Assembly: GCA_951799425.1 (NCBI GenBank) | Contig: OX637402.1 | Location: forward strand, 19,233,844 to 19,297,843 | DNA: 64,000 nucleotides | Direction: 5' to 3' | Source: Ilex aquifolium | Taxonomy: Eukaryota; Streptophyta; Magnoliopsida; Aquifoliales; Aquifoliaceae | Shown: in pieces, positions 8,751 to 63,843 of the stretch | How positions within the stretch are numbered: the stretch's first letter is position 1 | Layout: the number at the start of each line of letters is the position of its first letter | Notes under the pieces: generated by a model | What the model was told of the DNA's origin: nothing | What the model saw: the letters and a program-made list of their open reading frames with translations, nothing else | Databases searched by the model: none | Program-made: the position numbers and the translations under genes

Positions 8751-9877
8751 AAAGGTCTATACATAAAAATGTAATACTTGGGTAAAAATTCCAGGGTATA
8801 GGTAGAGTTGTACAAACAAATTTTAACACATTTAAGTTTTGGGCAATACTCGGGTCAGGGTCTGTAGTTATTGTGTCTCCACTTGAATGAAACCCAAATC
8901 CGTGAATTTTGGTATCAACCCGAGTTGAACACGAGTTGCATTCAGGAAGAGAAATCAATTTCAACCTGAATTAGTTTGAGTTCAATGCGAATTTAAGAAT
9001 ATAAATGTGGATATTACGTGGGTTCAAAGGTTGGAATTAAATGTGGTAGTTTGAGTTTAGATTGACTCATGCATCACTTGTGTTGAGTCGGAACCAATCA
9101 CTCATCTCACTCGTCTCGTATAAGTTACACTTCTAAAAGAAAACAATGTTGTGTTATTGACGGCAAACAATGTGCACATGTGACAAAAAAATATGCACGA
9201 ACAAAGAGACCTCCTAGTGCTTAACATATCCAAAAATGCCATATTAGAGGCCCAATATGATAAAATTAGCTTGATATAGATCTCATTAAGACCAATTAGC
9301 ATGTAATTGGTACCAATCCTAACCCAAATCTCTTTCTTCTATTTCCACGTTATAGGAGCTCCGAATGCCCATGTCACCTTTTACTAGTGGTTTTACTCTA
9401 CCCTACGGGTAGGAAATATGATTTTCTGTCTTCTTACCTGATACTTTGCGGAAGAATTTTTTTCTTAGCCTACCTTACCCGATCAAGTATGGTATTCTTA
9501 CCCGACTTTCCGGCCAAATTAATCGGGTAGGAAGTCGGATAAGAAATCAGGTGAAATACTTTTGTAGTTATTAATTTTTGAATTATTTTAACAATTCAAT
9601 TAAATAACATTCACTAATTTAACAATACAATAAACCAATAACACTAAAATCTAAAACAATTATAATAAAACACAAGAAAGTATAAACATCAATCCATCAT
9701 AATTGTTACACAAATACAATAACAATTATTTTAAATTTAAATCATATGGTTAGAGAATTAGAGTTTTTAATTTTTATATATATATAAATTAATACGGGTA
9801 GGGTAGGGTAGGAATACGAAAATTAATGGCTATTCCGCATTTCTACCCGATTTAATCGAAAGACTAAAAACTTTTTG
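8751..9877. other. Intergenic; TE-like GGGTAGG-rich segment
   Basis: No gene. Around 9395-9860 the sequence carries opposed TACCC / GGGTA words (CTACCCTACGGGTAGGAAAT at the left, GGGTAGGGTAGGGTAGGAAT at the right), consistent with a worn DNA-transposon derivative. Clear target duplications were not found. Confidence 0.35.
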
Positions 9878-10047
9878 AGCAATGCTATGTATCCCAAATG
9901 TCTAACCCAAATTTTCATCCCAAATCAAGAAAGATCATTGGATCAGTGGGTCCCAGTTAAAAAAGTTGATGGGACCCACTCATCCAATGGTCTCCCTTCA
10001 TTTGTGATGAAAATTTGGGTTAGAGATTTGTGATACATAATATTTTC
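9878..10047. mobile_element. Hairpin MITE (Mutator-like family M), copy 1
   Basis: A roughly 170-bp palindrome: the left arm GCTATGTATCCCAAATGTCT pairs with ATTTGTGATACATAAT at the right, and the middle holds opposed CCCACT / AGTGGG words. It is the same family as 10213-10380 and 43760-43931; the last copy has a 9-bp target duplication. Confidence 0.75.
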
Positions 10048-10212
10048 CTTTGGTATATCCTAGTGGGGCAAAAATAGTGGGTGTAACTGAACACCACGTC
10101 AGCAATGTTAAATGTAAGGGTGTTCAAATTTTTTATTAGCCGTAATTTTCTACACTATCCAACTTTATTGAATGGCTGGTCAAAAAAATCGGATAGGAAT
10201 ACAAAAAAGTTT

Positions 10213-10380
10213 GGAAAATACTATGTATCTTAAATCTCTAACTCAAATTTTCATCCCAAATGAAAGGGAGACCATTGGATGAGTGGGTCCCATCAAATTT
10301 TTTAACTGGCACCCACTGATCCAATGATCTTCCTTGATTTGGGATGAAAATTTGGGTTAGACATTTGTGATACATAGATA
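10213..10380. mobile_element. Hairpin MITE (family M), copy 2
   Basis: Second copy, 165 bp downstream of copy 1, with arms GGAAAATACTATGTATC and GATACATAGATACC. The internal order of the opposed CCCACT words is swapped relative to copy 1, as expected if the nearly symmetrical element sits in the other orientation. Confidence 0.75.
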
Positions 10381-23777: not shown

Positions 23778-25307
23778 TGGTTTCTTTAAGAGTTTGAGAT
23801 GGTAAATTTTAGAGTTAACTTGTTGAGCTAGATGGGGATCCCAATTGAGTAACATTACATACATGTATTTTAATTTATAGCTTCTCAATTTAATAATTAG
23901 TATAAATTGTTTTATTGTTCTTGTGAATCTTGATGCTGACAAAACTTGTCTGTGTTCTTGTTCGGATAGTATAATGTTTGCCCATTAGGTTTATACTATG
24001 GGGTTCATCTGTACCTTCTGTTCACTAAACTTTGTGGTGAAGTTTTCATGGTGTTTAATTTTGCAGAATTCTTGTTGGAATGTGAACTACAATTTGGATT
24101 GTAGGATGTCTATGTATTTGCTCCTTACCTTCCTTCAGCTTATCACCGGCAGTTTGTTGAGGGTTCTAAACTCAAGGATGACAACTAAACACGAGGGTTG
24201 GGCTCATTGCGGGACTTAACCCAACACATTATGACACGAGCTGATGACAGTCATGCACTGCCTGTGATATTTAGTTGTCAAACAGAATGATTTATCGATA
24301 GGGACCTCATTTTCTATGACTCTTTACAGATGGTATCTTTAAACTTGTGAGAACACAGACACTAGAACATCATATGGAACTTGGTGGGGGCTTGAACTCC
24401 CCACGTAAGGTTAATGAGATAGAAGGCTCGACCAGGCTATGACTGGACCAGGAAGCCAGTAGTAAAGATTGACATAATGGTTTGAAGTGTTTTAGAATGA
24501 CGTCTAGTCTGAAGCTGACTGGAAAGCTTGCAAGTAGAAGGGTGTATTTGGTGTGCATGTCAGTGAGAGATTGGTCTTGGTGTTATGGTGTCTTCATTAA
24601 TCACAGCACCCCTTGTTTTGCAGAAATGACAGGTACAACCACGATACATTGACAGTTTGTTTTTGAACATAAACACCATTCCTGAGCTTAAATTAGATGT
24701 AAAAGCTGAAAAACAGGGGAAAAGGATGGTATTCCCATTTTTGAGCGTATCTTAATCATCTGTTTCTCACGATCCACGACTAGCCGGATTCAAGTCCACA
24801 AAACAGGTTGTTTCGGTCATTCAGGAGGTCCACCAGCACAGTGTATCTCTGGATATGTTCCAATATTTCACTGCAGGGTCGAACCAAGTTATAACTCTAG
24901 TGGTACAACAGATGTTGATCTGTTGTTACTCGGAGGGATGATCTTATGGTGGTCTTGATATTCGACCTACCAGCCCTTGTTCTTATACGGCGGCGGCTTT
25001 GTTAGAATCTTTGCCATTAAATTAGTAGCAATAAACTTGATAAATTTAGTCTAAATAGTATTATTGAAAATCAAAAGGGGATAATAATTATTATTATTAT
25101 CATCATCATCATCATCATAATCACTGCTCTCTCCTATTGCTCTCTCTTGATTAGATATAACAAACATGATTTTAAGCATAATAGTGGGGGATTATTCCAT
25201 CATTACACTGCAAGGATTTGAGGAGGAAACACCCACCAAGTCTTCCAACTAAAAGCTACAATGTTAGAAATCAATCCATGATCTCTATGTCATCTAACAA
25301 GAATCAC
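23778..25307. other. Convergent intergenic region
   Basis: Lies between the 3' ends of the synthetase (plus) and RSS3-like (minus) genes and must hold both 3' UTRs and termination sites. Contains an ATT/ATC microsatellite at about 25085-25120. No other gene is seen. Confidence 0.5.
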
Positions 25308-42740: not shown

Positions 42741-43759
42741 TAGTGTCAATTTTAAGTGACAATAATTAATCTCATTTTTAATAAGAAGTTTTATTTATTA
42801 TTATTATTTTTGTTCATATTATGCATATTAATTTTTAATATTTTATTCAATCGTGGTAACGTGTCCACTCTAGAACTTTGGAAAGCTCCCCGCCACACTA
42901 TACCACCAATATCTTGGAAAGCTCTGAAAGTGCATTCCATTTGCAAGTAGCAGCAGCCACCAGGGGGGAGAAAAGTTTTAAAAGTGCATTCTATTTGCGA
43001 GAGACAGAGAGAGAGATGTGGAACACAGGGATGATAGCAATATTGGTGGCGATAGAGTGCGTGGAAGTGGGCTTAAACACGTTAACAAAAGCAGCCACGA
43101 GGCAAGGAATGAGCGAGTTCGTCTTCATTGTGTACTCAAACGCCATGGCTTTACTCTTCCTGCTACCTTCTACCTTGCTTTTTCACAGGTCTGTTCATTA
43201 TCTCCATCACAATCTCTATAATTCAGACTCAAACCTTACACCACAATCTATGAATTTTCATCTTTTTTTTCTTATGCATCTGCAGAGTCAGGCCTTGCCC
43301 TCAACTCACCTTCTCCATTGTTTGGAGAATCTTTCTTCTTAGCCTTCTCAGGTACCTCAACATTTGTCAAATGTCGGTTTTCTAAAATTGGCATATCGGG
43401 TTCAGACCGTATAGGCCTGTTAAGTGGTTTGTGTTTTATTAACTACATTCTCTACTAATTCTGTATAGATTTGGTATCACGTTCATAGATCATGCCTACT
43501 ATTGCTAATGCTAGGCTTGACCACTCGGACTTATTGTTATGTTATGGTGCTCTTTTGGGGATAAGTTGTAGTATGCAGGTTTGTACATACATTGGGATTG
43601 GGTATAGCTCTCCAACTCTTGCCTCAGCCATGACAGATCTCACCCCAGCTTTTACCTTCATACTTGCAATTATCACCAGGTATGTATTCCTCCTTTCGAC
43701 TCTATATATTCGAAGTTCGACTGATAGAACTACCCTACTCAATGGTCACTTAAAAAGAA

Positions 43760-43931
43760 GAGCAATGCTATGCATCCCAAATGTGCAACCCAAATTTGTA
43801 TCCCAAATGAAGGGGGATCGTTGGATGAGTGGGTCCTATCAACTTTTTAAAATGGGATCCACTCATCCAACGGTCCCCTTTCATTTGGGATGCAAATTTA
43901 GGTTACAAATTTAAGATACATAATATTTCTC
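43760..43931. mobile_element. Hairpin MITE (family M), copy 3, with 9-bp duplication
   Basis: In WAT1 intron 3. Ends GAGCAATGCTATGCATCCCA and GATACATAATATTTCTC are inverted repeats. The flanks TAAAAAGAA (43751-43759 and 43932-43940) are an exact 9-bp duplication, placing this family with Mutator-like elements. Same family as 9878-10047 and 10213-10380. Confidence 0.85.
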
Positions 43932-44089
43932 TAAAAAGAATAACAAGATTTGATGGGGACATATTTGCTTGCCATTGAATGATTTTAATTATTGATGGTC
44001 TCTAGAAACCACTTCAAATGAGTTGATGACACTTCTCCGGTGCCAGCCTCTTGACTTTGACCTTGTTATTATTATTATTATTTTTCGTT

Positions 44090-44293: not shown

Positions 44294-45377
44294 TCAGTTT
44301 AAGCCTATTCCACCTGTTAGAAGTTAGAACTGTTTGTTCCATGACCAAATTAGCTTTACATACGAAAATGGGCCCCTTAGTAAGATCATACAAGAATTAG
44401 TAATATTAGATAGATATAATTTATGTATCTAATTGGTGACTCAATCTAATGTTACAAATTTCATGTTAAACCCACTATTAATTCGGCGAGAATAATAGAT
44501 TGACTTAGGAAATTATGGGTAAAATAGGGGTGTCTATGGGTCAAGTCGGGCTTGGTTCGTAAAATTTTTTTTGGGTTGAGCCTGGATAGGGGAGGCTCAT
44601 GCCCTTACTCGGGTGAGTTATCCGATTGGTCAGGCCGGACTTCGGGTAAGGGTAGACTACTCGCAATCCAACTCGTCACTCACTGCGTGGGCCTGTTGAG
44701 TGGGCTTGCAGGCGATGCTACTGGACAAACTTTTTATATATAACTTCATTTAGAAATAATGAATATTTTTGTAACTTAATATTTGACAGTGCTAGTGGAC
44801 ATTCTATTGATGAATATGTTCTAGACTTAACAACCATCTTATATTCATATTTTAGAGTAGAAATGCAATTATTTATCTTGATGCATGAAAAAATATGGGA
44901 CACCTTAATGTTTACTAATTCTTAAGTACTGAGAGAGAATTGATTAGTTTTGTTTAGGATGGAAAAGCTAGAGTTGAAAGTTCCAAGTAGTCAAGCCAAA
45001 TCAATTGGCATGACAGTATCAATCACCGGAGCGCTCATTGTGACTCTCTATAAAGGCCCTCGATTATATTTTCCCAATCACCTTCTAAACTAGTATATGA
45101 TCTTTTGTGTCTTCCCAATCAAATTAGATTTTTGGAGGCATTCTCTGTGCAGCCGCCAGCCTCTTTCTCGCACTCTTATTGGTTGTCCAGGTAACACAAC
45201 TCTCTCTACTATTTTCTCTATCCAACAACTACTCTCGTTTGAAGAAATATCAAAAGATTATGGAAAAACAAATCTTTCTCACATCTATGCAGGCATGGAT
45301 TATTAGGGACTATCCTGCAGAGCTTATGGTAACACTCATTAACTCCACATTTGTTACTTTACAATCAGCATTTGTTG

Positions 45378-45698
45378 AGGTTTTCCCCAAACCCATTCCC
45401 CCTCAAAACTTAATTCCTCAACCCAGTCGATTTTCAACTTAATTCCCAAACCCAGCTTATTTTTAAAAACGTCATTTAAAATGACGCCTTCAGGCATAAA
45501 AACGTCATTTTAAATGACGATTTGAAGTTGAATCTTTTTATCCTAAAACGTCATTCGTAATGATGTTTTTAAAATCATCATTTACAATGACGTTTTTAAA
45601 TATGAATTTTAAACGGCAGTTAACAGAGACGTTAAAAAATAAAAGGGGAGGAAAACGTCATTTTGAATGACGTTTTTAAAAACGTCATTCTAAATGAT
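45378..45698 (+). repeat. MULE left terminal inverted repeat
   Basis: Begins AGGTTTTCCCCAAACCC and matches the reverse complement of 58368-58725. It contains about six to seven copies of a palindrome with half-sites AACGTCATT and AATGACGTT separated by 2-3 nt (near 45470, 45500, 45546, 45571, 45652, 45680 and 45710). The CGTCA/TGACG core is that of plant bZIP (TGA/as-1) sites, though transposase binding is just as likely. Confidence 0.9.
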
Positions 45699-46742
45699 AT
45701 TTTCAAAAACGTCATTCTAAATGACGTTTTCAACCCCCCATTTTTTTTTTGTGTAACTTTCGGACTTCTTAATTTTCTTTCTCTAAATTATTATATAGAT
45801 CTCCCATATAATAAATTAGTGGATAAAATATTATAAAATCTTTCGCTTTATATATTATATAATCTTATATATTATATAATCTTTCGCTTTCAACCCAATC
45901 AAAAGGGTATTTGATTCAATTCCCTTTTGAGTCACTATGTGGATAAAATATATCTATGTACATATGTTATATATATAATATATAAGAATTAACATAAGGA
46001 CATGCAGTAAACTCGTAGTAGTTAGTGGCTTATTCTTGAATAATAAAATGGATTTATCTAGCAAGTCTAGGGAACAATGACGTTTTCCACCCCTTAGCCT
46101 TTTACAATGACATTTTCTTAGCCAAAAGTCTCCAACCACCAACTTGTAAAAAATTTCATAAAAGCTAACTCCCCGACTATTCTCTTACATCATGATTCAA
46201 CATATAAAAAAAAATTAAAAAAATTATAGAATTTAATTCCCTTTTCATAATAATTTTGAACTTATTTTATAATCGAAAATAAAATTCATAAAAGCATAAT
46301 TTAATTTCATATTTTTCAATATAAAAACATATTTGTAAAACATATATTTAATAAAAAAAACTTAAAAGCGGGTTTTGAAAGCACACTTTTATATCTCATT
46401 AAAAAAAATCTCAATATTATAATCTCATTTCCCACGTTATAAAAGCATCCCAATCTGGAGGAACTTTTCCCCAAACCCAGTCAGCCCTAAAACTTTATTT
46501 CTCAAACTCAGTATTTTTTAAAAAATGTCACCTTAAATGTTGTTTTTAAAAACGTTTTTTTTTTAGAAATTTGTTTTATATATGTTAATTAATTAATTTA
46601 TTCCAATTTTATGTTATAAGTTCATCGAACATTTATAGCTGACCTACAAAAGTGTTCAAAACTTCAAAATATGCACGACTAAAATACTTATACATTAAAA
46701 CAAAACAAATTTATTACATGATACTGTAAGAAATACAGTCTG
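45699..46742. other. MULE left subterminal spacer
   Basis: AT-rich and non-coding. A rearranged partial TIR copy lies at about 46460-46560 (CTTTTCCCCAAACCCAGTCA followed by worn AACGTTT words). Confidence 0.6.
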
Positions 46743-47438
46743 TCAATATTTTGGTTGATGTAGAAAACAACAAAGTGGGTTGCCCAGTACACATAAACTC
46801 GATGGAATAAAAGTGTCAGACGCATCATCACTTAAATCGGAATAATTAGAGAGTTCTGTATCTGAAACAAGTAATGGATCCTGCAAAATTTGAATCTCAG
46901 CATAATCAGGATCGAAATGCTCAATTTTTGCATGGTCGATTGCATGCATACGATCAAGTCTACGCTGCATTTGATCATTTTCACGTTCAAGCCTTACTAT
47001 GATCTCGTTATAGTTGGTAGAGTTTTGTGGATCATATATATCAGCCGAACGTGCTTTTGGTACCATTGATCCATGCCAACAATAGTATACTTCAAGCTCA
47101 CAACATTTGTCATATAATTGACGCCATCTTGGTGTGGGTTCGATACGAACACTCGGAAGCGGAGAGTCGATCGCTGGCCCCACAAATACGTGTCCAACTT
47201 GACCGAATGAATGATAAGGGTCGCTGGGCTCATTACGGAACTCACGCTTTTGTCTATACCAAGTTACACCGGTAGAATCTGTGTACGATTCAATTGAACG
47301 AACTATGTCCATAGCACATGCTGCTCGCCCAGTCGACCGTTGATGTTCGTAGGGTGAAGATGAACTTTGTTGTTCATTGCGTGATGAAGAACCTTGGGTG
47401 GTTTGACTGAATTGCCTCTTAGATGTGCGCCTAGACAT
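46743..47438 (-). CDS. MULE accessory ORF A, function unknown
   Basis: Intact 231-aa frame starting at ATG 47438. I do not recognise it. The N-terminus is Ser/Gln/Arg-rich and the middle has WRQLYDKCCELEVYYCWHG. A predicted coiled coil at about 144-166 contains E153-N154-x-x-M157-x-x-R160-x-x-R163, followed by an acidic tail (about 172-210). The VPKARS...YNEIIVRLEREN segment aligns with ORF B (VPRRRS...YESAVKQVRREN) and ORF C, so the three look like one family. A role in transposition, or a defence against host silencing as in some MULE-encoded proteins, is speculation. Unlike the neighbouring transposase and PMD genes it has no premature stop. Confidence 0.65.
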   Translation of the reverse strand: MSRRTSKRQFSQTTQGSSSRNEQQSSSSPYEHQRSTGRAACAMDIVRSIESYTDSTGVTWYRQKREFRNEPSDPYHSFGQVGHVFVGPAIDSPLPSVRIEPTPRWRQLYDKCCELEVYYCWHGSMVPKARSADIYDPQNSTNYNEIIVRLERENDQMQRRLDRMHAIDHAKIEHFDPDYAEIQILQDPLLVSDTELSNYSDLSDDASDTFIPSSLCVLGNPLCCFLHQPKY

Positions 47439-47928
47439 ATTTTGGGTTCTGATGTACACAATTAATAAGGATGGTTTATATAGACACGAAATAGAAATAT
47501 ATTAAATTTGACAAGATAATTACTGGGTACGAGTAACATGACTTGACACATGTAAAGTAATGATATGACTCTACACTGATAAAGTAATGATATGACTCCA
47601 GAATGACAATAGGACTGACATGACGTGTCTGTAGACTGACGACACACTGATAAAGTAATGATATGACTCCACACTGATAAAGTAATGACATGACTTGTCA
47701 CTAGATTGATAACACTGATAAAGCAGGACTGACATGACTTGTCAGTAGATTGATTACACTAACAAAACAATGAAATGTGTTTACAATGAAAAAGTAAAAA
47801 CATAACAATTGAAATACAAAGGACTGACATGACTTGACACTACACTGGTTAGAAAGTATTGCTATCTCAGTAATGAACAAATGTAGATTTTGTTATGCTT
47901 CATCAGACATATAATCATCTGACATGTA
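47439..47928. other. MULE spacer with degenerate short repeats
   Basis: Recurring words ACTGATAAAGTAATGATATG and GACTGACATGACTTG in a loose tandem arrangement between about 47530 and 47840. It lies upstream of ORF A on its coding strand, so it may serve as promoter. No gene. Confidence 0.6.
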
Positions 47929-48336
47929 TTATGCATTAGACAATATATTGTTTTGCTCAACTGGTGTCAACTCTCGTCCATGTGCAGTTCCCATCATCTC
48001 TTTTTCTTGTTGGAGCATATAATAGCGAGACCTACGAACCAACATGCTATTATTCTCTCTTCGAACTTGTTTTACTGCCGATTCGTAATCCTCTCTATTC
48101 CGGCGTTGCATTGTTAGTGATCGTCTACGAGGCACTGATATGCTAAGTTCTCTTAGTTGTGTAAATAGTTCGTCTGATTCTTTAGCACGAAAAACCCACT
48201 CTCGTCGCACTCCTGCATAATACTCTTTTGGATCGAAGAATCTCTCATTCTTGTAATCATCGTTTCGCTCTTGTAACAACCAAACTCGTTCACGTCTGCG
48301 ATTGTTAAACCTCGTAGATAAATTTGATGTAGACAT
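47929..48336 (-). CDS. MULE accessory ORF B, function unknown
   Basis: Intact 135-aa frame from ATG 48336, very basic (many Arg). Not recognised by family. It has FFDP at 33-36 (ORF C has FFYP at 22-25), SVPRRRS at 67-73 and the shared coiled-coil motif E94-N95-x-x-M98-x-x-R101-x-x-R104. It is transcribed away from ORF C, the two starts being about 500 bp apart. A DNA- or RNA-binding or structural role would fit the charge, but this is inference. Confidence 0.62.
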   Translation of the reverse strand: MSTSNLSTRFNNRRRERVWLLQERNDDYKNERFFDPKEYYAGVRREWVFRAKESDELFTQLRELSISVPRRRSLTMQRRNREDYESAVKQVRRENNSMLVRRSRYYMLQQEKEMMGTAHGRELTPVEQNNILSNA

Positions 48337-48834
48337 AATGTTGTGTTTGCTATATCAACGGCAAAATGATGTTTAAATAGTAGTGTCTCAAGCTTATTGT
48401 GGTAGACATGTCATATCAGTCAATAGTGAAACAGTGTAGTGAGCAGAGGTCATATATGGTATAATCATTCAGCAGATTAGTGTATGGTCATTTCAGTCTT
48501 TCCCATTATCAAATGTGTGTTGTAACTTCAACACATGGTATGCATAAACTCATTCAGGGGTAAGTTAGTTCAGCACATGGTATGATGAAACCCATTCAGG
48601 GTTTTGTCACTTCACCACATGGTCTGCTGAAACCCATTCAGGGTGTAGTCACTTCAACACATGACATTAAGTAGTCACGAGTACTCAATTTTTCTTCTTT
48701 AGCATTATGACATAGCAGTTACTTGTCACTTCAAGACAATGTTTGTATTGATATGGTCAGTTGTTGGGAGATTTGTGTATTCACTATATATTCACCGTCT
48801 TTAAGCAAGTAAGTGAAGAAAACTTATTTTCAAC
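48337..48834. other. Divergent spacer between ORF B and ORF C
   Basis: About three copies of a roughly 54-bp unit (CACATGGTCTGCTGAAACCC, then CATTCAGGG, then TCACTTCA) between about 48520 and 48665, and a TATA-like CACTATATATTCACC (48781-48795) some 45 bp before the ORF C start. A likely two-way promoter. Confidence 0.55.
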
Positions 48835-49272
48835 ATGAATTATAGTGTTAGAACTCTATATGAAAATATGGGTTATCATTGGGCCTTAGAGGATGAGTTC
48901 TTCTATCCAATGAATCCGCGTTTACGTTATTCTACCAGGGTCATAAGAACCATGAGGGCCAAATTGTACTATCGTATGACGGAGCGAGAAAATTTTATTG
49001 GAGATATGCAAACTTGCAATTTACGAAAGCCTCGACAAATCGCCATCCATATGCCAGTTGAGACACCTGAACAACTGGAGCGAGTATTGTATCGTTTTCG
49101 AGCTGAGAACAATCGGATGACAATCCGTCTTAATCGTTACAACCTTCGTCGCATCGCACGAGAACTTGTTGAAGAAGAGTTAATGGAAGAAGCACGTATA
49201 AGTTTCCTTCTAAATGGAGAAGTTGGATGTATTTTTGATGTCGAGATGTCCGACGAAGATGTTGACCCATGA
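48835..49272 (+). CDS. MULE accessory ORF C, function unknown
   Basis: Intact 145-aa frame and the only plus-strand gene of the element. It has FFYP at 22-25 and a basic centre. A long helix at about 76-122 contains E91-N92-x-x-M95-x-x-R98-x-x-R101, then Glu-rich turns (LVEEELMEEA). The tail is acidic (SDEDVDP). It shares the E-N-x-x-M-x-x-R-x-x-R core with ORFs A and B. No known domain is visible. The ATG follows a TATA-like box by about 45 bp. Confidence 0.65.
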   Translation: MNYSVRTLYENMGYHWALEDEFFYPMNPRLRYSTRVIRTMRAKLYYRMTERENFIGDMQTCNLRKPRQIAIHMPVETPEQLERVLYRFRAENNRMTIRLNRYNLRRIARELVEEELMEEARISFLLNGEVGCIFDVEMSDEDVDP

Positions 49273-49722
49273 AACATGTTGTGTAGAGAACTGTGATATT
49301 AGTGTTGTGTGGTGAACTGTGATGTTAGTGTTGTGTAATAAATTGTCTAGTCGGTTTTATTCGGACAAGTGTTAAGTTAGTGTTGTGTTGTGTGGACAAG
49401 TGTTATGGTAGTGATGTGGGAACAAGTGTTATATTAGCGTTTGTGGGTAGAAATATTATTTTGCTGTTGTGTGAATAAATTGTATGTTAGTGTTGTTTTC
49501 TCCAGATCAAGTTATTGTTGTGTTGTTTTTTACATGTAAAATGTAATATACGTGTAATGTTGAAGTGAGTTAAATTTGTTGTGTACAAGAATGATTATGT
49601 ATGTGGCTAATTGATTGAAGAATACTATAACAAAACATGATTGTGTAAGTGATAATCTATGTACAAAAGAAAAAAAGTTTACAGTGTAGCAAAAAAAAAA
49701 AAAGACAACAAATACATGAACA
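49273..49722. other. MULE spacer
   Basis: Degenerate TTAGTGTTGTG words repeated between about 49290 and 49500, downstream of ORF C. No gene. The 3' ends of ORF C (plus) and the PMD gene (minus) converge here. Confidence 0.5.
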
Positions 49723-52662
49723 TCATGTCCCACACGCAGGTGGTCGCCTACGTCGTTTCGGCTGTCTGCGAACCTCCTGCTCAGCATCCTGTGGTACAAC
49801 CTGTGTCACCTATGACACACCGACATCATCGTGATGATGTGCATGCTGTGCACGCCCTATCTCTTGCCCCCGTCCTCGACCTTGTCGTCCACCTCTAACA
49901 CGCGGTCCAGCTCGCACAAGGCCTACACCTACAACTGTAGGATCCTGTGTCACTCCCTCCTCATCTAACAATGTGTCTAATATAGGAGGCTGTCCAGATG
50001 AGGTGGGTATCGAAGCAACTACAGTCGGTTCCGGTATCGGGGTAGATGATGTGGTCAGTATGGGTGTCGATGCCGGGGGCGATATGGGTGTCGATGAGGG
50101 GGGCGATATGGGTGTCGATGTCGGGGGGCGATATGAGTGCATGTGACGCTGCCGGTGTATGATCAAGTGCAGATGCCGGTGCCGGTACTGACGGCGGGGT
50201 AGATGTCGGGGTTGGTGTAGGTGTCGATGAAGATGCTGGTGCCGATGTCGGTGGCAGTGTCGATGTAGGCGCATGTGTGGGAGTCGGTGAGTGAGCCAGT
50301 GCCGGTACTGACGGTGATGTCGGTGCTGATGTTGGTGGCAGTGTCGATGTAAGCGCATGTGTGGGAGTCGGTGCTGATGGTGATGCAGTTGCCACTGTCG
50401 GTGTCAGTGTCGGCTCATGTGTAGGCGACTCTGTCGGTGTCGGGGCTGTGGTCGACGATGTATACGGTACATCATCTGCCGACACTGAAGCTGCGTGTAG
50501 TCGTCGGTGCTCCCGGATAGATGTCAAACATGATGAGCTCATATCTGTAATACGACCAATGGTGTCCATGCAACGTGTCAAGTTTGGACTGCCCTCATAT
50601 GTACCACGTGCAGTGTGATATATCCATGTAAGTGTCTTTTCCTACAAAAATTATTTCAACACATTAGTAATTGTATTAAACAATCAGTAACATTTGTCAT
50701 TCGAATGGAATAGTAAAGCATTTAACATATTACCAGAAGCTCTATGATGCTCCCAACTGGCTGAAAATCGACAGTAGGCCTTGCGATTGGTGGACCAACA
50801 AGACGCCGTGTGATGCGACGATACCATTGCATGTATGCGTCGGTCGGCTCCATCGGTGCAACACTCAGATCCCCGGTAATAATAGTATCTCTACGATGTG
50901 CCCACATCTCCGTGTATATCTGATGAACTACAGACCAGTCCCGACCTGATCTACCTCGACGGTTGACAGAATGCAAGGCCCGGCTCGTATCGCATGGCTG
51001 TGGTATGCGCTGGATCAGGCCAAACTGTCGAGTAACTCGATCTGAAAAATGCCACTCCACGACATCGAAGTAAATCAATGGGGCTCGTGTACGCCAAATC
51101 TCTTGCCCAATAAGGCAATAATCTAGCAGGCCACCCATGACATCAGCTGTATATGGTTCCCATATCATCTACAATACAAATTGTGACTAATCATTAATAA
51201 ATGTAAAGGTAATTTTAAAAAATTTCGGCAGAGTTTCCTTTGAAAATTGGACATTTCCAAATTTTTTCAACCTGTATACAACACACTCAACACAATGACA
51301 GACATAAACAAATAAAAATAAACATCCCACCATCTCAACATTCACTTACTTCACATGTAAATTCAATTCGATCAACCCAACACATTAACAAACTTTAACA
51401 ACTAATAGTTCGAGTTCGTCAGATAGGGTCAAGTTGATATACCTGATCCTCGCGCATCTGGTCTAGCTGGTCCCGATAGTAACGTAATACATGGGTAGAA
51501 GTGTGCTTCTCCGATAATGTGACATCTCATCTATACATTTCAACAAATTTTTAAATACTTAATAATACGTAAAACATTTAATTACGTGCATTGTATGTTT
51601 AGTACAAACCTACAACCAAGGGGCCCATCATGTGCGCCGTGCGCATCAACTGCGTTATGTGCTGGACCCACAACAACTGCATCTACACCGACTCCATGTA
51701 ACGCTGTACCAGCCCCATCGGGCGCCGCTCCATCATGGGCGACCCGCTGTCGTGGTAACACACGTTGTGGAACAATATGTACCAGACGCCCCCATGCCCA
51801 CAACTACATACACAATACATTGATTACACATACGTATGTTACAAAAAGGAAAAAGTAAGCAACTAAGTGAAAAATGAAAGCATTTACTTGAAGCAGGATA
51901 AGTGGACCGCTAATATCCTTCGCGTCTGGCTTTGTAGCGAGACACATCTCCCGATATAACCATGATAGGGCCGCACTGCCTCAACTAAAAGTGTCTGCCT
52001 CATGTAAGTCTCTAATCAATGGTAGGAACATAAGCTTCACCCTACTCGACGACTTGTCGCCGAAAAAAAATCCCCCAATCAACAAAAGGATGTACGATCG
52101 GGCGTAACATGATATAAACTGCTCGGTCGCATCAGCTGGAATCCCATGGGGCCAAATGCTCGGCAAGTGCACTAAGTCGGAGAGTGGACTTATCTATCAC
52201 TCCGTCTGCTGGTGTGAATCCGAACAACTCAGTGCACATGACACTCCACTGCTGTACGTCGCGGACGGTGTCTACACCACATACAGGCATCCCATCAACC
52301 GGAAGGCCAAGTAGTAAAGCTGTATCCTGAAGAGTGATGGTGGCCTCATCGACTGGCAAATGAAATGTGTGTGTCTCGACGCGCCACCGCTCTACAAGTG
52401 TAGTAATAAGATGCCAGTCCAGCTGAATGTATCTAAGGCGATATGCCCCATAAAATCCAGATGTGCGTAGATGCTGAATGACCAGATCGTCTGTGATGGT
52501 AACTCGACGAAGAGGAGCCTCTGATCGTCTACAATGTAACGGGGGTAGCTCGATGCCCTCCCAAATAGCAGTCGTGTGATGGTCACCCTGTAATGATAGA
52601 ACAGACGCATCATCGGGACCTGGATGTAGTAACGAACGGGGATCACGATCTATGTCTATAAC
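49723..52662 (-). pseudogene. Plant mobile domain (PMD, aminotransferase-like) gene of the MULE, broken
   Basis: Minus-strand exons: 52662-51888, 51803-51610, 51530-51443, 51168-50734 and 50641-49723. PMD blocks are plain: RLRYIQLDWHLITTLVERWR, TFHLPVDEATITLQDTALLL, YARSYILLLIGG, LWAWGRL, MIWEPYT and CDTSRALH. The last exon encodes a Thr/Pro/Ser repeat region (PTHAPTSTLPPTSAP type) and ends with an Arg/Lys-rich tail (RRQPKRRRR) that looks like a nuclear signal. PMD proteins occur in plant MULEs and Ty3 elements and as host proteins (MAIN/MAIL family). Breaks: a frame change near 52150, TGG-to-TGA inside TFS-x-GSA (51981-51983), a one-base shift near 50125 and a TAG near 49810. No start codon is seen before the first exon. 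Confidence 0.85.
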
Positions 52663-52689
52663 CTACATCAACATAAAATATACAAACAT

Positions 52690-52890
52690 GAGTTAACATA
52701 TATAAATAACAACGTTAATATGTATATAAACGAACAAATACAACATTTTAATATAAATATCATAACAAGAATAATGGGCTACAACAATAAATAATGCAAT
52801 ATCATATCTAGAATAATGGGCTAGAACAATAAATAATGCAATATCATATCTAGAATAATGACCTAGAACAATAAATAATGCAATACAAGT
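52690..52890. repeat. 51-bp tandem repeat between transposase and PMD genes
   Basis: Three copies of about 51 bp (AACAATAAATAATGCAATA, TCATATCTAGAATAATG, GGCTAG) immediately upstream of the PMD gene and downstream of the transposase gene. Possible promoter or terminator role; inferred from position. Confidence 0.7.
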
Positions 52891-52921
52891 TACATACAAC
52901 ATTAGAGTGCATAACTAACAT

Positions 52922-55630
52922 TTATAGTGGATGACCCATTGAAGAAGCTGATTGGTTGTTTGCCGCACATGTTCGGCGATCGTGCCCTGATTGCAAACAA
53001 ATACTACAGTGGTTCTTCTTGCGCCCTTCTCTCGGAAAATCCATTTCATTCCGCATGTGCGATGTCTGTGGACGTCCTTTAACGCCTCGACGCAACGACC
53101 TATCATGGCATAATATAGGGCCACCGGTATCATCCCAATAATCTTGGTGGTGCAGAAGATGAATATCAGGTGCATAAGTGGATTCAAGTGCATGGATGCT
53201 ATATACTTGATCGATTAAATTTCAAGAACTAATATGGAAATGCAAGCATGCGGCCATAACATGAGAATAAAGCATTTTATAAATTGTAAATTTCCCACAA
53301 CTGCATGTCAGGTCATCAATACAAACAACATGTGTATTACCGTTAGTACTGACCACCTTCGCAAATTCACGTTGCATGTGAAATGGTGTAACAGTACACA
53401 TTCCTGCTTTGACCTGGTTGTGTCGCATAAATTCGATTGCTTCAAGTGAGTACTCCATACCATCCTCTATGCAGCGTTTTGCATGCTCACGGCGCTCACA
53501 AAAGTATATTGTGAGCCGATAAAATATGAATTTCACACATGCAGTGATGGGAAGCATCCTAGCACCTTTCAATGCACCATTGAACACCTCAGAAACATTG
53601 GTTATGGTTGTTCCATATCGCCGACCACCATCATGGGCAATTGTCCACTGTTGTGCTGGAATATCATCTAACCTCTTCCATGCCAATGGTTCTATACTTT
53701 TAATTTCTTCCATGATCAAATTAAACTTGCGAATCTGATGAGCTGCCCCAGCCTTCCAAACTTGATCTTTCAAATACGTGTTCTTGTAATGTGTGTTGAA
53801 ATTGCTTTGTACATGCCTAAGACAGAAACGATGATAGGCGTATGGTTCATTCCACCCAGAATCAGGTTTCTTAACCGCTGATATTATACATTTACGTCGA
53901 TATGAGATTAAGCATATACCAGCTCTATTCGACACAACAGAGTGGCGTAGATGATATAAGAACCAACCCCATCTTTCACTAGTCTCCTCATGAACAAAGG
54001 CAAATGCTAGAGGAAAAATCTTCTTCTGAGCGTCAATCCCAGTAGCAATAAGCAGCTTATGCTTATACTTGCCATTTACAAATGTGCCATCAATGCTGAT
54101 TACAGGCCGACAATGAACAAACCCATCAATAGACGCTTTGAATGCCTAGAACACCTTTCCAAATATGTCGAATTCAGGAGCACGAGCCTCATATTTTCAC
54201 TTTACAATCGTCCCAGGGTTGTATTTAACAAGAGCACCCATAAACTTCAGCAAGATGTTGTAAGAAGAATCTCAGTCACCGAAAACCTTGGCTATAGCCT
54301 TATTCTTCGCATTCCACGTCTTCTTATACGTTATCAAATAATGATACTTTTTTTTGACCATTTCAATGATGACAGGCATTGTTACATCAGGTGTACCCCG
54401 AACCACACCCTCAATCCATTGAGAAATAAAACCTGCGTCAAGCTGACAGTAGTCCTGGTTCAACCTTGGGTAAAAACAAGTGTAAGGTGCCTGATATTTT
54501 GTGATCTCAAACATTCCATACTTCGCCTTCAAAACCGCTCGTAGCCTCCATTTGCATCCACATTGTACATACATCTTACACCTCAAAACCCATCGCGTTT
54601 TGTTTGTATCAACAACAACATATTGTTGTTGCATCTTAATTGAATACAATTTAACTGCCATCTCCAGCTCCTTTTTACTCTTGAACACCATACCCTTCGC
54701 CAGTTCTGGTCTTGTAGGATCCCATGCTTTAATTCCATGCGAAATGCACAAGCTGTCAACTTCATTCTGGGTCCCCGATTCAACGTTTGAGAAAAATGTT
54801 GACTCGGGCTCATGCATAGGAACCTCACCATCATCCTTAACAGAATTACATTCGGCATCGTAATCATCATCATCAGAGTCATCACTCAATAAATCTTCTG
54901 TCAATTCTTCTTGTTCGTAGTAATCATTTCGGTCATTAGCACACATTCTTTCATATGTATTATTATCAATCTGATGCACTACAAGTGCTTGGACAGGGTC
55001 CACTGGCGTCGTTGTCGGAGTAACTACAATCATTTCCATTCGCTAGTTACCCAATGTAGCACTGTAGTTTTGCTGGGATGAGCATTCTGGAAAAGATCTA
55101 TGCCTTGTTTCAGATTGAGCATGTGTATATCGATTGTATTCTTCCATACACTGCATTGTTAATGGGGTGTAATAATTACACACCATGGCTGAAGGGTCAA
55201 GCACTGAGACATATGGTTGTTGGCTGAGCATAGAAGAGTATGAACCACCCTCAGGCCAACATTCATGACTTCCTCCAATGTCATCTTCTCTAACCTCTTC
55301 ACTCACATACAAATCCACTTTGTTAACCCCTTGATTATCAAATACAACATCAACCATTGCCTCCACACCATCGTTGTCAACAACTTCTACTGGAATACAT
55401 GTAAAAAGGTTAGTTCCCAATGCAGTAGGAAACCTACAGATAAGTTTCAGGATGTATTTATTCCTATCTAACCCCATCACATCATGCAACCGATCCACCA
55501 AAGTCGAGTGAGTTGTGTCATGAGCAACCTTGATCACACGCTTATAACCATTATCGTATCGTAAAACATCATGGTTGTTGAATATGGTACCACCCCAATA
55601 AACCATCACAGAAGCACGTCTTCCAGCCAT
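52922..55630 (-). pseudogene. MULE transposase, full length, five in-frame stops
   Basis: From ATG 55630 to TAA 52922-52924 one frame runs 902 codons with no frameshift, interrupted at 55043-55045 (TAG), 54272-54274 (TGA), 54197-54199 (TGA), 54146-54148 (TAG) and 53222-53224 (TGA). Domains in order: MuDR-type N-terminus (YWGGTIFNN region), acidic linker, MuDR DNA-binding region (GMVFKSKKELEMAVKLYSI), MULE core, SWIM zinc finger (CSCGKF...SHVMAAC) and a CCHC knuckle (CSICLQSGHDRRTC). At least three stops fall where the family has Trp (before the YN-LLPKFMGALVKYNP block, before KYEA, and before AFKASIDG). The catalytic core keeps ISIDGT (Asp 1) and SEVFN (Glu), but the second Asp (normally LISDRH) is Tyr. 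The first Cys of the SWIM C-x-H step is also Tyr. It cannot be active. Confidence 0.92.
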
Positions 55631-58367
55631 TCTTAACAATTCTACAATAAAGACATCAAAAATTAGTGTGTATACACAACCAAAACATTAAAATCAATGG
55701 GGCTTGTTCATGCTTTCATCGAAACTTTTGTTTGTTCATGCTTTCAAATGCATATACACCGGGTATCCCGTTCTATATTTCAATCACCCATCAACAAATC
55801 AGTGCTACACAAATACATATAAACATGCATTTCACAAGGATCCAAGTTTAAGTCCAACTCTTCGACAATGTATCAATCTAAGCATAATCCATTTCCATTT
55901 TCACTTTTCAATTACACAAGCTCACACCAATAATCAACCCACAACTTTCCACAACTTTTCAGAAAAATTTCACAAGCTCTATAAGTTCTAACGAAAGGCA
56001 CCAATATATAACATTTCTCATATATTATAACATTTCACAAGCTCTAAACGTTATAAAAATTGCACCCAAATATTGTTCTACATGTCAGCACTCATCATCA
56101 TCCATAGCAACCACTCTCAAAGGCCCATCATAACCCAAAATTGAAAAAACATCCAAACTAGCATTAAAACTAAAATTTAATTCCTAAATTTCTAAGAATA
56201 CACCTAAATTGCAAACTATCCACCGAAAATTGAAAAAAAAAAACACTTGTGCTTGTTAATGTGTATTCTTGGACCAGAAATGCTATAAATTAAGGTTCCT
56301 TTTCATGTATAGGTAAAATATACATACTTTAAGCCCATGCAATGCTTCTTCTGTATGGCCTTCCACGTTAATTTTTCGTAGAACAATACATATCATCATT
56401 GCAAATCTTCCGGATGTACGAGGAACCAAATTGGGATTAAATCATTTGACTTGTTATTTACAGCAACCCTATTTCATTCCATTTTCTGCTTATTCTTTTG
56501 GAAAAAAGAAAATTTTATACCATGAATCAATGAATTACAAGAAGCAAAGGAATTGAAAAAAAATCTAAGTACCAACAGTTGGCTTTAATCCTTCAAAAGG
56601 ACTAAAACCCAATATCTATCTAACACAGTCCAGCTGCCTAGCCATCAATGCAGAGAAACAACCCATGGTCTCAGACAAACCACATACTGCCTGCAATCTA
56701 TTATGCCTTGGTTTTGTACTCAGAAATCTATTGTGAGATTACTTGATTTTGGGGGGGGGGGGGGGGGGGGGTTGACAAAATTACTCATTGTTTTTTGAGT
56801 AATAAAAAGAACATACAATTCCATTGAACGAACTTGGTTTTTTTCCCTTTCTAATGATTTGCTCAATCTACATGATAATATATATATATATATATTATGA
56901 TAGCTTATCTGAAACTATTTTCATGTGTCTTGGGTTAGGATGTTGGATAAACTAGTTTTATGTATTTATTAGATTCTTATTGAAGACTATTATTGACACA
57001 GTGATACTGAATACAAAGAAAATTTGAATGATTTTATACCTTTCTTTCTTTTTTTTAAATGTTTTTATACTCCTTGTACTGTATCGTTCCAAAAAGAGTA
57101 GGGATTCTCTAAAATTAGTAAAAATATTGAAGTTGGAGCAAAAGTTATATATCTAACCGAGCGATGTTATTTGAATCTAATATGCGGATATGAAAATTAT
57201 TTTTTTAAACGAATCTAAAAAATTGTTCAATCTCGATTCGTTTAGAACACGAGCTCGAGTTCGAACCGAGTCCTACCCGAATCGAGCCTCACTAACTTGG
57301 CTCGATTAACAACCCTACATATACCGTAAGAGTATAGGGGGAAGCCATAAGCATCAACACCTTAAAATCAATTTTTGACGGAATGAAAAATACATATATA
57401 ATAAAATTATAATCACAGAACACGACCCTAATCATAAAATTGTAATCACCCATATGTAATTTTCTATGTAATAAAATAGAGCAGTCTTACTTGCATAAAA
57501 ACTCCACCTCGTTTAGATTCAATGTTTTGTAATCTCATGCATAATAAACCTTAGCAAATCACTAGGTATAATTCCTACAATGTTTGTGAAACAGTCCATC
57601 AGAAAAAATAGAGAAGCTCTCGTGAGGACAGAATTTGAATTGAATTGGCAAAAACTATTTTTGCCAAGAGAAATGAAATTATTTTATTGGTGATTTAATA
57701 AGGTGGGTGTGCAGGTATTGAATTTAATTGTCACGTATGTATTGTAGACTTGGCAATTATTGAACTGTCACTATGAAACTAGCTAGAGCCATGAACATGG
57801 AGAGTTGCCAACAAAAACATTACTCAATTCCCACCCACTGGACATATCTCATGAATGAATCATCAATGCTAAATTCAGAGGATCGATTTTGCCCTAAATT
57901 CGATTTTGGGCAAAATTCGATTGAGTGATTGGGCTGGAATGGAGAATGGATTTAGGCAAAATTCGATTGAGGTCAAAATTCGATTTAGGCTGGAATGGAG
58001 AATGGACATACTCACTGGTGGAGCTATGGATTACGCGGAGTCGCTGGTATGCTCAGTCAGTGCTCATTCGCTGCTCAGTCGCTGGTCTGCTCAGTCGCTG
58101 GTGGAGTAGTTGTGGATCTATTGAATATTCGGTTGGAGGTCGTTGGAGTAATACCTGGCTGAGAGTGGTTGAAGAGGAGGAGGAGAGCTTAGAGAGTCAT
58201 TGGAGGAGGAGGAGGAGAGCTCAGAGAGTTATTGGAGGAGGAGGAGGAGAGCTCAGAGAGTCGTTGGAGGAGGAGGAGGAGGAGGAGGAGAGCTGAGTGG
58301 TTGAATGAAATGTTTGAAAATTTTTGACCTAACGAGTGATTTGGGAAATTTTAAGTGAGGTGAAACG
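55631..58367. other. MULE right spacer, repeat-rich, no gene
   Basis: Contains a 21-G run (56751-56771), a (TA)n run (56878-56895), repeated AAAATTCGATT words (57885-58000), GCTCAGTCGCTGGT repeats (58040-58100) and a 30-bp tandem unit GGAGGAGGAGGAGAGCTCAG (58195-58290). Open frames across these repeats are low-complexity and are not called. It includes the transposase promoter region (left end). Confidence 0.6.
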
Positions 58368-58725
58368 TTTAAATCGTCATTCTAAATGACGTTTTTAAAA
58401 ACGTTATTCAAAATGACGTTTTCCTCCCCTTTTATTTTTTAACGTCTCTGTTAACTGCCGTTTAAAATTCATGTTTAAAAACCTCATTGTAAATGACGAT
58501 TTTAAAAACGTCATTACGAATGACGATTTTAAAAACGTCATTACGAATGACGTTTTAGGATAAAAAGATTCAACTTCAAATTGTCATTTAAAATGACGTT
58601 TTTATGCCTGAAGGCGTCATTTTGAATGACGTTTTTAAAAATAGCTGGGTTTGAGAATTAAGTTGAAAATCGACTGGGTTGAGGAATTAAGTTTTGAGGG
58701 GGAATGGGTTTGGGGAAAACCTCAA
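58368..58725 (-). repeat. MULE right terminal inverted repeat
   Basis: Reverse-complement partner of 45378-45698, slightly longer because one extra palindrome unit is present (58507-58556 holds two near-identical copies). About seven AACGTCATT/AATGACGTT palindromes in all. Outer end reads ...GGTTTGGGGAAAACCTCAA. Confidence 0.9.
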
Positions 58726-58841
58726 CATTTGTTGCTCAAGTTGCTGAAAGGGATCCAAATACTTGGAAACTCAGACCCGATATCGAGTTGGGGACGATTT
58801 GTTATTCGGTATATGCATTTGAAATGACCCATAATTTAATC

Positions 58842-63284: not shown

Positions 63285-63843
63285 TTGCAAGTCCGAGAGG
63301 CGTTTGATCACTGTCCTAAAGCAGCTGAGCCTTTCCACGTGAGGGTACTGACGGACACCAGCGACTCCAAGATCCAACCCAGACGCTCGCAGCAGCAGTT
63401 TCTCAATGGTCACGTCCACCGGAAGGTTGGAATGAACCTGACTCAAATCGAGCTGTCCAAAAATAAAATAATAGATGATAATTGAAAAGGTAGGCCAAGT
63501 GTAAGAACTGAAATGAGTAATTGGAACGTATCCCGGGTGTTGATTTCGTTGCTCATCAATAGATTTCTCAAAGCCACTTTATATAGCCACTATGTGTAAC
63601 CTACACATGATGACTTTCAATGTTTTTGAATGTTGGCCTACACATGCCTACAAATGATATATTTTCAATGGATTTGACTGTTTGGCCTTGAATAGCTTTA
63701 AAACCAAATTGAAAGTCAATAATTATTATTCTTGAATATAAACACTAAATAAGACCAACAAATTTACAATTGAAATTCACAATTTAAACATAATTAAAAT
63801 GAAAATTCAATAAAAATTTTAAAAACTTAATTTTATTCTTACA
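63285..63843 (-). repeat. LTR-like dispersed repeat, right copy
   Basis: Direct-orientation relative of 1-590, better preserved. On the minus strand it starts TGTAAGAATAA at 63843 and has a TATA box CTATATAAAG (rc of 63577-63586), then the ...CCAGCGACTCC... block. Likely an LTR or solo LTR; the distal end is not defined. Confidence 0.5.

Follow-up and report, generated by a model that had tools for sequence, protein, structure and literature searches.

The window analyzed here is a stretch of 64,000 nucleotides (nt) of nuclear DNA from Ilex aquifolium, within contig OX637402.1 (C12) of an 800-Mb assembly. It contains a Mutator-like element (MULE) of 13,347 bp with long terminal inverted repeats (TIRs), located at 45377-58723. 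The element has a MuDR-type transposase gene and a plant mobile domain (PMD) gene, both on the minus strand, and at the opposite end three small open reading frames (ORFs) termed A, B (both minus strand) and C (plus strand). The best explanation of our data is that A, B and C belong to a single family of small helical proteins, within which they have diverged, and that they are standard cargo of a lineage of large MULEs carrying a MuDR-type transposase and a PMD gene. They are candidate element-specific DNA-binding regulators or anti-silencing factors, a reading to which we give a probability of roughly 40%. The positions and properties of all features are summarized in Table 1.

An earlier note on this DNA, made from its letters alone, had drawn attention to the three ORFs, and each is complete from ATG to stop at the position and on the strand that it gave. 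Three ORFs of this size are not expected by chance. Among 1000 dinucleotide shuffles of 46500-49550 none had at least three ATG-initiated ORFs of 135 amino acids (aa) or more, none had a single one of at least 231 aa, and just 17 had a single one of at least 135 aa. The common features that had been noticed are also present. The helix motif EN[DN]xM begins at residue 153 in A, 94 in B and 91 in C, a proline-basic pair precedes the E of EN by 26, 25 and 25 residues respectively, and FFxP occurs in B (FFDP) and C (FFYP). The statement that all three are stop-free does not hold for B. In 16 of 23 B copies (the window included) the frame is 147 aa long and ends in an acidic tail resembling QYxSDxYMSDEx, with further internal stops in 6 of those 16. 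B of the window ends at residue 135, with acidic tail sequence present 3' of the stop, and its open frame measures 141 against 153 in most near relatives. It is truncated, and lacks the conserved acidic tail.

The kinship of the three proteins was examined using alignments of copies from the same genome (7 sequences for A, 10 full-length sequences for B and 21 for C), compared as profiles by hhalign. This comparison had been set beforehand as the test that could refute a single protein family, and it gave a significant match. B and C match with a probability of 97.8% and an expect value (E) of 1.1e-12 over 103 columns that include the acidic tail. The A-B match has a probability of 46% (P 2e-4) with collinearity across 106 columns that extends to the tail, the A-C match one of 5% (P 0.007), and A against the joint B and C profile, with B lacking its tails, gives 34% (P 4e-4). 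The profile scores are 77.0 for B-C, 32.3 for A-B and 23.2 for A-C, where the maxima from 120 column shuffles each are 20.8, 19.0 and 20.0. For the window sequences alone, the local B-C score of 81 was reached by none of 4000 shuffles. The A-B score was reached by 7 of 4000 full and 4 of 4000 local shuffles, and the weaker A-C score by 51 and 82 of 4000. When A was scored against a B/C profile built from the window only, 0 of 300 shuffles did as well. The common architecture comprises a tryptophan in the N-terminal part, the proline-basic pair, a helix of the form ENNxM(x)2R(x)2RY (ENDQMxRRLxR in A) and an acidic SD-rich tail; B and many C sequences also have a basic RREW-like segment. The profile match identifies B and C as paralogues decisively, and A is probably the third, for which these comparisons are fair and not decisive. 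The proposal of one family made in the earlier note is upheld to that extent.

The same note knew of no named domain in these proteins, in agreement with our searches. Window A, B and C have no acceptable Pfam match; at E up to 1 there are zero matches for A and B, and for C there is ARD alone at E 0.13, far below the cut-off. Eleven B members searched at E up to 0.1 gave weak matches to DUF413 in two and to nSTAND3 in one, and nothing else. DUF1985 and DUF287 were matched neither by the window proteins (E up to 1) nor by the 11 B members (E up to 0.1), and PF10536 was not matched by A, B or C of the window. Searches of the PDB by sequence (A and C) and by profile (C and B) found no natural relative, and returned three weak matches that are all to designed proteins, the best (E 0.0039) covering residues 100-121 of C. 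In the IMG/VR viral contigs 4 stretches matched a search pattern for C and 42 one for B, none of which was confirmed. An AlphaFold2 model of C, for which B was the sole other row of the alignment, has three helices, with a predicted local distance difference test (pLDDT) score of 54.7 and a predicted template modelling (pTM) score of 0.40.

All three ORFs are present in many copies across the genome. The best 150 matches were scored for each, drawn from 697 first-look candidates for C, 796 for B and 784 for A, so that copy counts and linkage are lower bounds. Stop-free frames were counted by eye in 55 of the best 150 matches to C. Linkage was computed from the positions of the B and C matches. 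A listed C match lies within 9 kb of 83 of the 150 listed B matches, on the opposite strand in all 83; 72 of these B matches are upstream of C and 11 downstream. When positions were drawn at random on these contigs, with a length of 40 Mb assumed for each, the mean number of linked B matches was 0.41 and the maximum 3. The view of the earlier note that the three are accessory proteins encoded by the MULE is supported.

We examined 20 ten-kb loci around C, hand-picked from the 150 C matches to span identities and biased to stop-free C, so that the intact fraction among them is no estimate; the 3.4-kb loci L001-L008 (L001 being the window itself) were left out. With genes called by tblastn at E of at most 0.01, 19 of the 20 contain B, 15 contain A, 14 at least part of a transposase and 13 at least part of a PMD gene. 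Gene order and strands, where detected, are those of the window, except in L026 and L028 where B lies between PMD and transposase. Open frames of A, B, C and the transposase are all found in L009 and L022. In the four elements on contigs C9, C12, C14 and C20 the frames of A, B and C are all stop-free, and the scores of each are identical or almost so (A 460.8 bits and C 287.6 bits in all four, B 248.8 bits in three and 252.7 bits in one), which is a sign of recent spread. Three loci (L020, L021 and L023) are ~95-98% alike over their longer shared parts, and have B and C whole with no detectable A. They seemingly carry three different internal deletions, and the survival of B and C in them may be due to chance, since both lie near one end. 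Repeats at ~255-bp spacing are seen near the left end of these three.

Selection was analyzed on the best tblastn piece per gene in the 20 ten-kb loci and the window, skipping stop codons and requiring at least 60 codons. The median Nei-Gojobori ratios of nonsynonymous to synonymous substitution (dN/dS), for non-independent pairs with dS of 1-2, are 0.29 for A (23 pairs), 0.24 for B (25) and 0.22 for C (37). Young pairs (dS < 0.2) give 0.54-0.68, as expected if young copies drift. Judged by these ratios, the trio is under purifying selection between subfamilies. Between the window and L022 the identities are 70, 60 and 63% for A, B and C, 31, 47 and 51% for the transposase from N to C terminus, and 62 and 57% for PMD. 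Against L020-L022 as a group they are 60-62% for B, 62-63% for C and 31-32% for the N-part of the transposase. In the comparison with L022, conservation of B and C equals or exceeds that of the transposase, and is far above that of its N-part. Distances at four-fold sites (window against L019-L028) between the window's subfamily and g2a, a group of 12 distant loci, are lower for the trio (A 0.36, B 0.39, C 0.46) than for transposase (0.63) and PMD (0.69). Among members of the window's subfamily the corresponding five values are 0.15, 0.11, 0.14, 0.16 and 0.27. This is a weak lead; the per-pair intervals overlap in part, and toward L026 and L028 A is as distant as the transposase (0.58 and 0.62). 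It may be that the transposases had already split when the trio was exchanged between the lineages, or that its silent sites are constrained.

The purifying selection between subfamilies constitutes the evidence that the trio is functional, instead of the contrast on which the earlier note relied, namely an intact trio beside transposase and PMD genes riddled with stops. We have rejected that contrast. The description of the two genes was overstated, as the transposase has 5 stops in 902 codons and the PMD gene at least one stop and at least one frameshift, read by eye from the frames. At the transposase stop rate, 511 codons would be stop-free with P = 0.059, which is not significant. In the window's subfamily (11 loci, A being present in 9 and transposase in 6) there are 17 stops in 1718 codons of A, 18 in 1347 of B, 10 in 1595 of C and 23 in 4155 of the transposase; the window's own five transposase stops lie outside the pieces counted, and adding them would bring the transposase to about the rate of C. 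Stops therefore accrue in the trio about as fast as in the transposase or faster, and B of the window is itself truncated.

The non-coding DNA around the three genes is repetitive. The A-B spacer, the B-C spacer and the region downstream of C of the window each contain an array with a different unit. Arrays between A and C are found in the window and in 17 of 25 relatives, with units that are subfamily-specific on reading by eye. The top-ranked words include no single exact word common to the window's three arrays, and a common core, TGACWACACACTG (allowing one mismatch), becomes visible only on comparing subfamilies. Within g2a it occurs in 7 of 7 A-B spacers (18 copies forward, 0 reverse; 0.03 expected), in 10 of 10 B-C spacers (48 forward, 3 reverse; 0.27 expected), and in both A-C gaps that lack B (9 forward, 2 reverse). 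The expectations come from 40 shuffles in a per-locus recount (5 in the first count), and L030, which has neither spacer, was uncounted. There is one copy of the core in L026, and L028 is without it. No copy lies downstream of C in any of 25 loci. The far 5 kb has none either in 21 ten-kb stretches (the window counted); this is the PMD/transposase side, and extends beyond the end of the element in some loci.

This arrangement is reminiscent of the VANDAL elements of Arabidopsis (Hiun/VANDAL21, with VANB and VANC), to which the earlier note had likened the trio. According to the available parts of two papers, VANC21 binds a 9-base motif in tandem repeats in the non-coding DNA of its own element and induces loss of methylation, and the targets of VANC proteins form non-coding tandem repeats whose sequence is quick to diverge from one relative to the next (PMC5735166, PMC10398659). 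The VANDAL elements and the present one are both MULEs with genes beyond the transposase and with quickly changing non-coding tandem repeats. The present element differs in its long TIRs, its PMD gene and its set of three small proteins where VANDAL21 has a single VANC. Moreover, A, B and C of the window match neither DUF1985 nor DUF287, and the VANC21 motif YAGTATTAY is not enriched, occurring 4 times in the whole window and 0 times in the element, with 2.9 expected; over the loci tested it was found 0 times in the A-B and B-C spacers and 3 times downstream of C. The likeness to VANC receives anatomical support from the motif arrays, and none from the VANC domains or motif.

Given the VANC-like anatomy and the PMD gene carried along, sequence-specific self-activation or anti-silencing is the most economical reading. 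Beyond the presence of conserved proteins beside motif-bearing repeats, we infer a mechanism as follows. A, B and C would enter the nucleus and bind the repeated motifs next to their own genes, singly or as mixed coiled-coil complexes through the conserved E-N-N-x-M-x-x-R-x-x-R-Y helix. Once bound, the proteins would maintain transcription or demethylation in the adjoining part of the element, and the element would thereby escape silencing. Repeats and proteins would change together, as has been proposed for VANC and its targets.

A number of observations weigh against this. One set of spacers served both to find the core and to count it, so the count describes and does not test. It is sparse in the window's subfamily, where A-B spacers have it in 3 of 8 loci (7 copies, forward) and B-C spacers in 8 of 11 (11 copies, all reverse), and where other units dominate: GTCACTTCAACACATGG with 28 copies in B-C spacers, AAAGTAATGAYATGACT with 23 in A-B spacers and TGTTATGTTAGTG with 47 downstream of C. 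At the score used, 8 of 25 relatives have no tandem array between A and C, including L020, L021 and L023, which nevertheless hold 4-5 copies of the motif. The VANC21 motif is at chance level. The profile probabilities of A are just 46% with B, 5% with C and 34% with both together, and elements may be able to do without A, at least in trans, as L020, L021 and L023 are without detectable A. The sole structure model, that of C, is poor. Finally, host factors may bind the repeats upstream of the genes, as they would in any common promoter.

The main rival, possible if doubtful, is that the trio are instead transposition helpers, acting as structural partners that the transposase needs in excision or integration, with no role in anti-silencing. 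This is the kind of role described for MURB, which is required for integration according to the accessible text of PMC6446971 and PMC9168764. Maize MuDR resembles the present element in having an accessory gene (mudrB) next to the transposase in a TIR MULE, though it has one such gene against three here, and the likeness of MURB is by description, not by sequence. The occurrence of some transposase in 14 of the 20 loci chosen by C is consistent with helpers, as are the purifying selection, the strongly basic character of B and the helical prediction for C (at low confidence). Yet helpers would leave unexplained why the motif is confined to sequence upstream of the three genes, and the trio is conserved where the N-part of the transposase has diverged to ~32% identity. 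The history of the trio may also differ from that of the transposase, which would be odd for tight physical partners.

A somewhat less probable explanation is that the repeats in the spacers belong to ordinary promoters or stem from replication slippage, and have sites for host factors while being unbound by the trio, which would act elsewhere. The three arrays of the window share no repeated 8-10-base word among the top-ranked words, bar simple-sequence words, and the arrays downstream of C have no tested motif in common with those upstream, as this explanation would have it. It fits poorly with the finding that 19 of 19 A-B, B-C or A-C gaps examined in the 12 distant loci contain the core, for the most part in a single orientation, and that 0 of 25 regions downstream of C do.

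That only B and C are paralogues, the helix of A being alike by chance or by coiled-coil convergence, we regard as unlikely. The low profile probabilities of A would be in keeping with this, as would its greater length and its lack of detection in 5 of the 20 loci, L020, L021 and L023 among them. Against it, neither the A-B nor the A-C profile score was reached in the column shuffles, the score of A with the window-only B/C profile was not reached either, and A matches B and C in the spacing from the proline-basic pair to the helix and in the acidic tail. Lastly, MULEs often take up host sequence (PMC6446971, in its available part), but functionless captured fragments of host genes, as in a Pack-MULE, are so improbable here as to be rejected, being contradicted by the selection between subfamilies (medians of 0.22-0.29), the constant frame length and linkage in many copies, and the lack of a Pfam domain in the window copies; the trio may still descend from a host gene.

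Other MULEs are known to carry additional genes. In the accessible portions of the literature these include mudrB and vanB/vanC (PMC6446971), and ULP sequences are among the known cargo (PMC2528002). The Abermu MULEs of barley and other plants are likewise large elements with TIRs, and have two extra ORFs of unknown function (ORF2 and ORFR), one in opposite orientation, with Ka/Ks < 1; there ORFR is reported to be less conserved than the transposase (PMC9168764, in part), whereas in the present element the N-part of the transposase is less well conserved than B and C. The available text of that paper is without the terms PMD, plant mobile or tandem repeat, and the likeness is by description, not sequence. 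Proteins with a PMD encoded by transposable elements, relatives of MAIN and MAIL, are represented by the PMD gene of our element, which matches PF10536; here it is a separate gene, and A, B and C do not match that family. On the part of the source available, the PMD is described as angiosperm-only, and PMDs borne by transposable elements have been suggested to be a counter-silencing strategy (PMC8616336). A search of literature on PMD-Mutator/MULE and MULE accessory ORFs, with most subscription papers and Repbase outside its reach, found no such trio described. The protein family and its arrangement are apparently new, and the kind of cargo is already known.

Table 1. Features of the MULE in the window, with their positions and main properties
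Feature	Position	Strand	Properties
ORF A	46743..47438	-	231 aa; isoelectric point 5.6 (acidic); helix ENDQM; acidic SD-rich tail
ORF B	47929..48336	-	135 aa here; isoelectric point 10.2 (basic); last 12 residues missing relative to 147-aa copies
ORF C	48835..49272	+	145 aa; same frame length in 25 of 26 copies examined
A-B spacer, upstream of A	47439..47928		tandem repeats with periods of 27, 71 and 44 nt
B-C spacer, upstream of both divergent genes B and C	48337..48834		42-nt tandem repeat with GTCACTTCAACACATGG core
Region downstream of C	49273..49530		26-nt repeat, its core in the window's subfamily being TGTTATGTTAGTG
PMD gene	49810..52662	-	introns, at least one stop and at least one frameshift; proline-rich 3' part; ends approximate
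42-nt tandem repeat	52756..52885		between transposase and PMD genes
MuDR-type transposase	52922..55630	-	902-codon single frame with 5 in-frame stops and 0 frameshifts; C-terminal CCHC-like knuckle
Left TIR	45377..45745	+	AAAACGTCATT..AATGACGTTTT units; inverted pairs I1-I3; ends from alignment and target duplication; inner end approximate
Right TIR	58357..58723	-	inverted pairs, alignment and target duplication; inner end approximate
Target site duplication	45367..45376		AGCATTTGTT; partner AACATTTGTT at 58724-58733; 9 of 10 identical

The inverted pairs I1-I3 of the TIRs are 92-95% complementary and gap-free. With its long TIRs and a 10-bp target duplication (one mismatch; 8-11 bp required) the element is a TIR-type MULE, and the presence of a MuDR-type transposase excludes it from the transposase-less Pack-MULEs. 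The transposase matches PF03108 (E 1.1e-11) and PF10551 (MULE; E 4.1e-16) above the Pfam cut-offs, and the PMD gene matches PF10536 at 50722-51168 (E 1.6e-21) and 52132-52662 (E 2.3e-24). A GGA-rich tandem repeat with a 32-nt unit (58174-58281) lies directly inside the right TIR.

The element sits inside an exon of a host gene (45179-45376 and 58724-58800) that resembles a WAT1-type (WAT1/EamA) transporter gene. When the host flanks are rejoined computationally they give one uninterrupted reading frame. A neighboring ORF (43492-43914) has a sub-threshold match to EamA only (E 0.0013). Elsewhere in the window, a fragment of bacterial-type small-subunit ribosomal RNA at 24119-24244 on the minus strand (Rfam RF00177, 67.9 bits) is probably an insert of organelle DNA. 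A hairpin with 81-nt arms at 43759-43932 has ~80% related copies at 9871-10048 and 10210-10380; these are perhaps miniature inverted-repeat transposable elements. A direct repeat of ~590 bp that is 79% identical (3-592 and 63286-63843) lies close to both ends of the window.

A bolder and rather unlikely possibility is that plant MULEs have a second, independently evolved system of sequence-specific anti-silencing or self-activation. Three paralogues unrelated in domain to VANC would read a motif upstream of their own genes, and together with the PMD protein would form a four-gene counter-defense cassette that passes from one MULE lineage to another at a higher rate than the transposase does. 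The role is known for few of the accessory proteins that plant MULEs encode, MURB and VANC being those named in the available literature, and here there are at least 150 matches to each of three in one genome. The trio and its adjoining candidate target repeats would provide a second system in which to test how DNA transposons regulate themselves or escape silencing.

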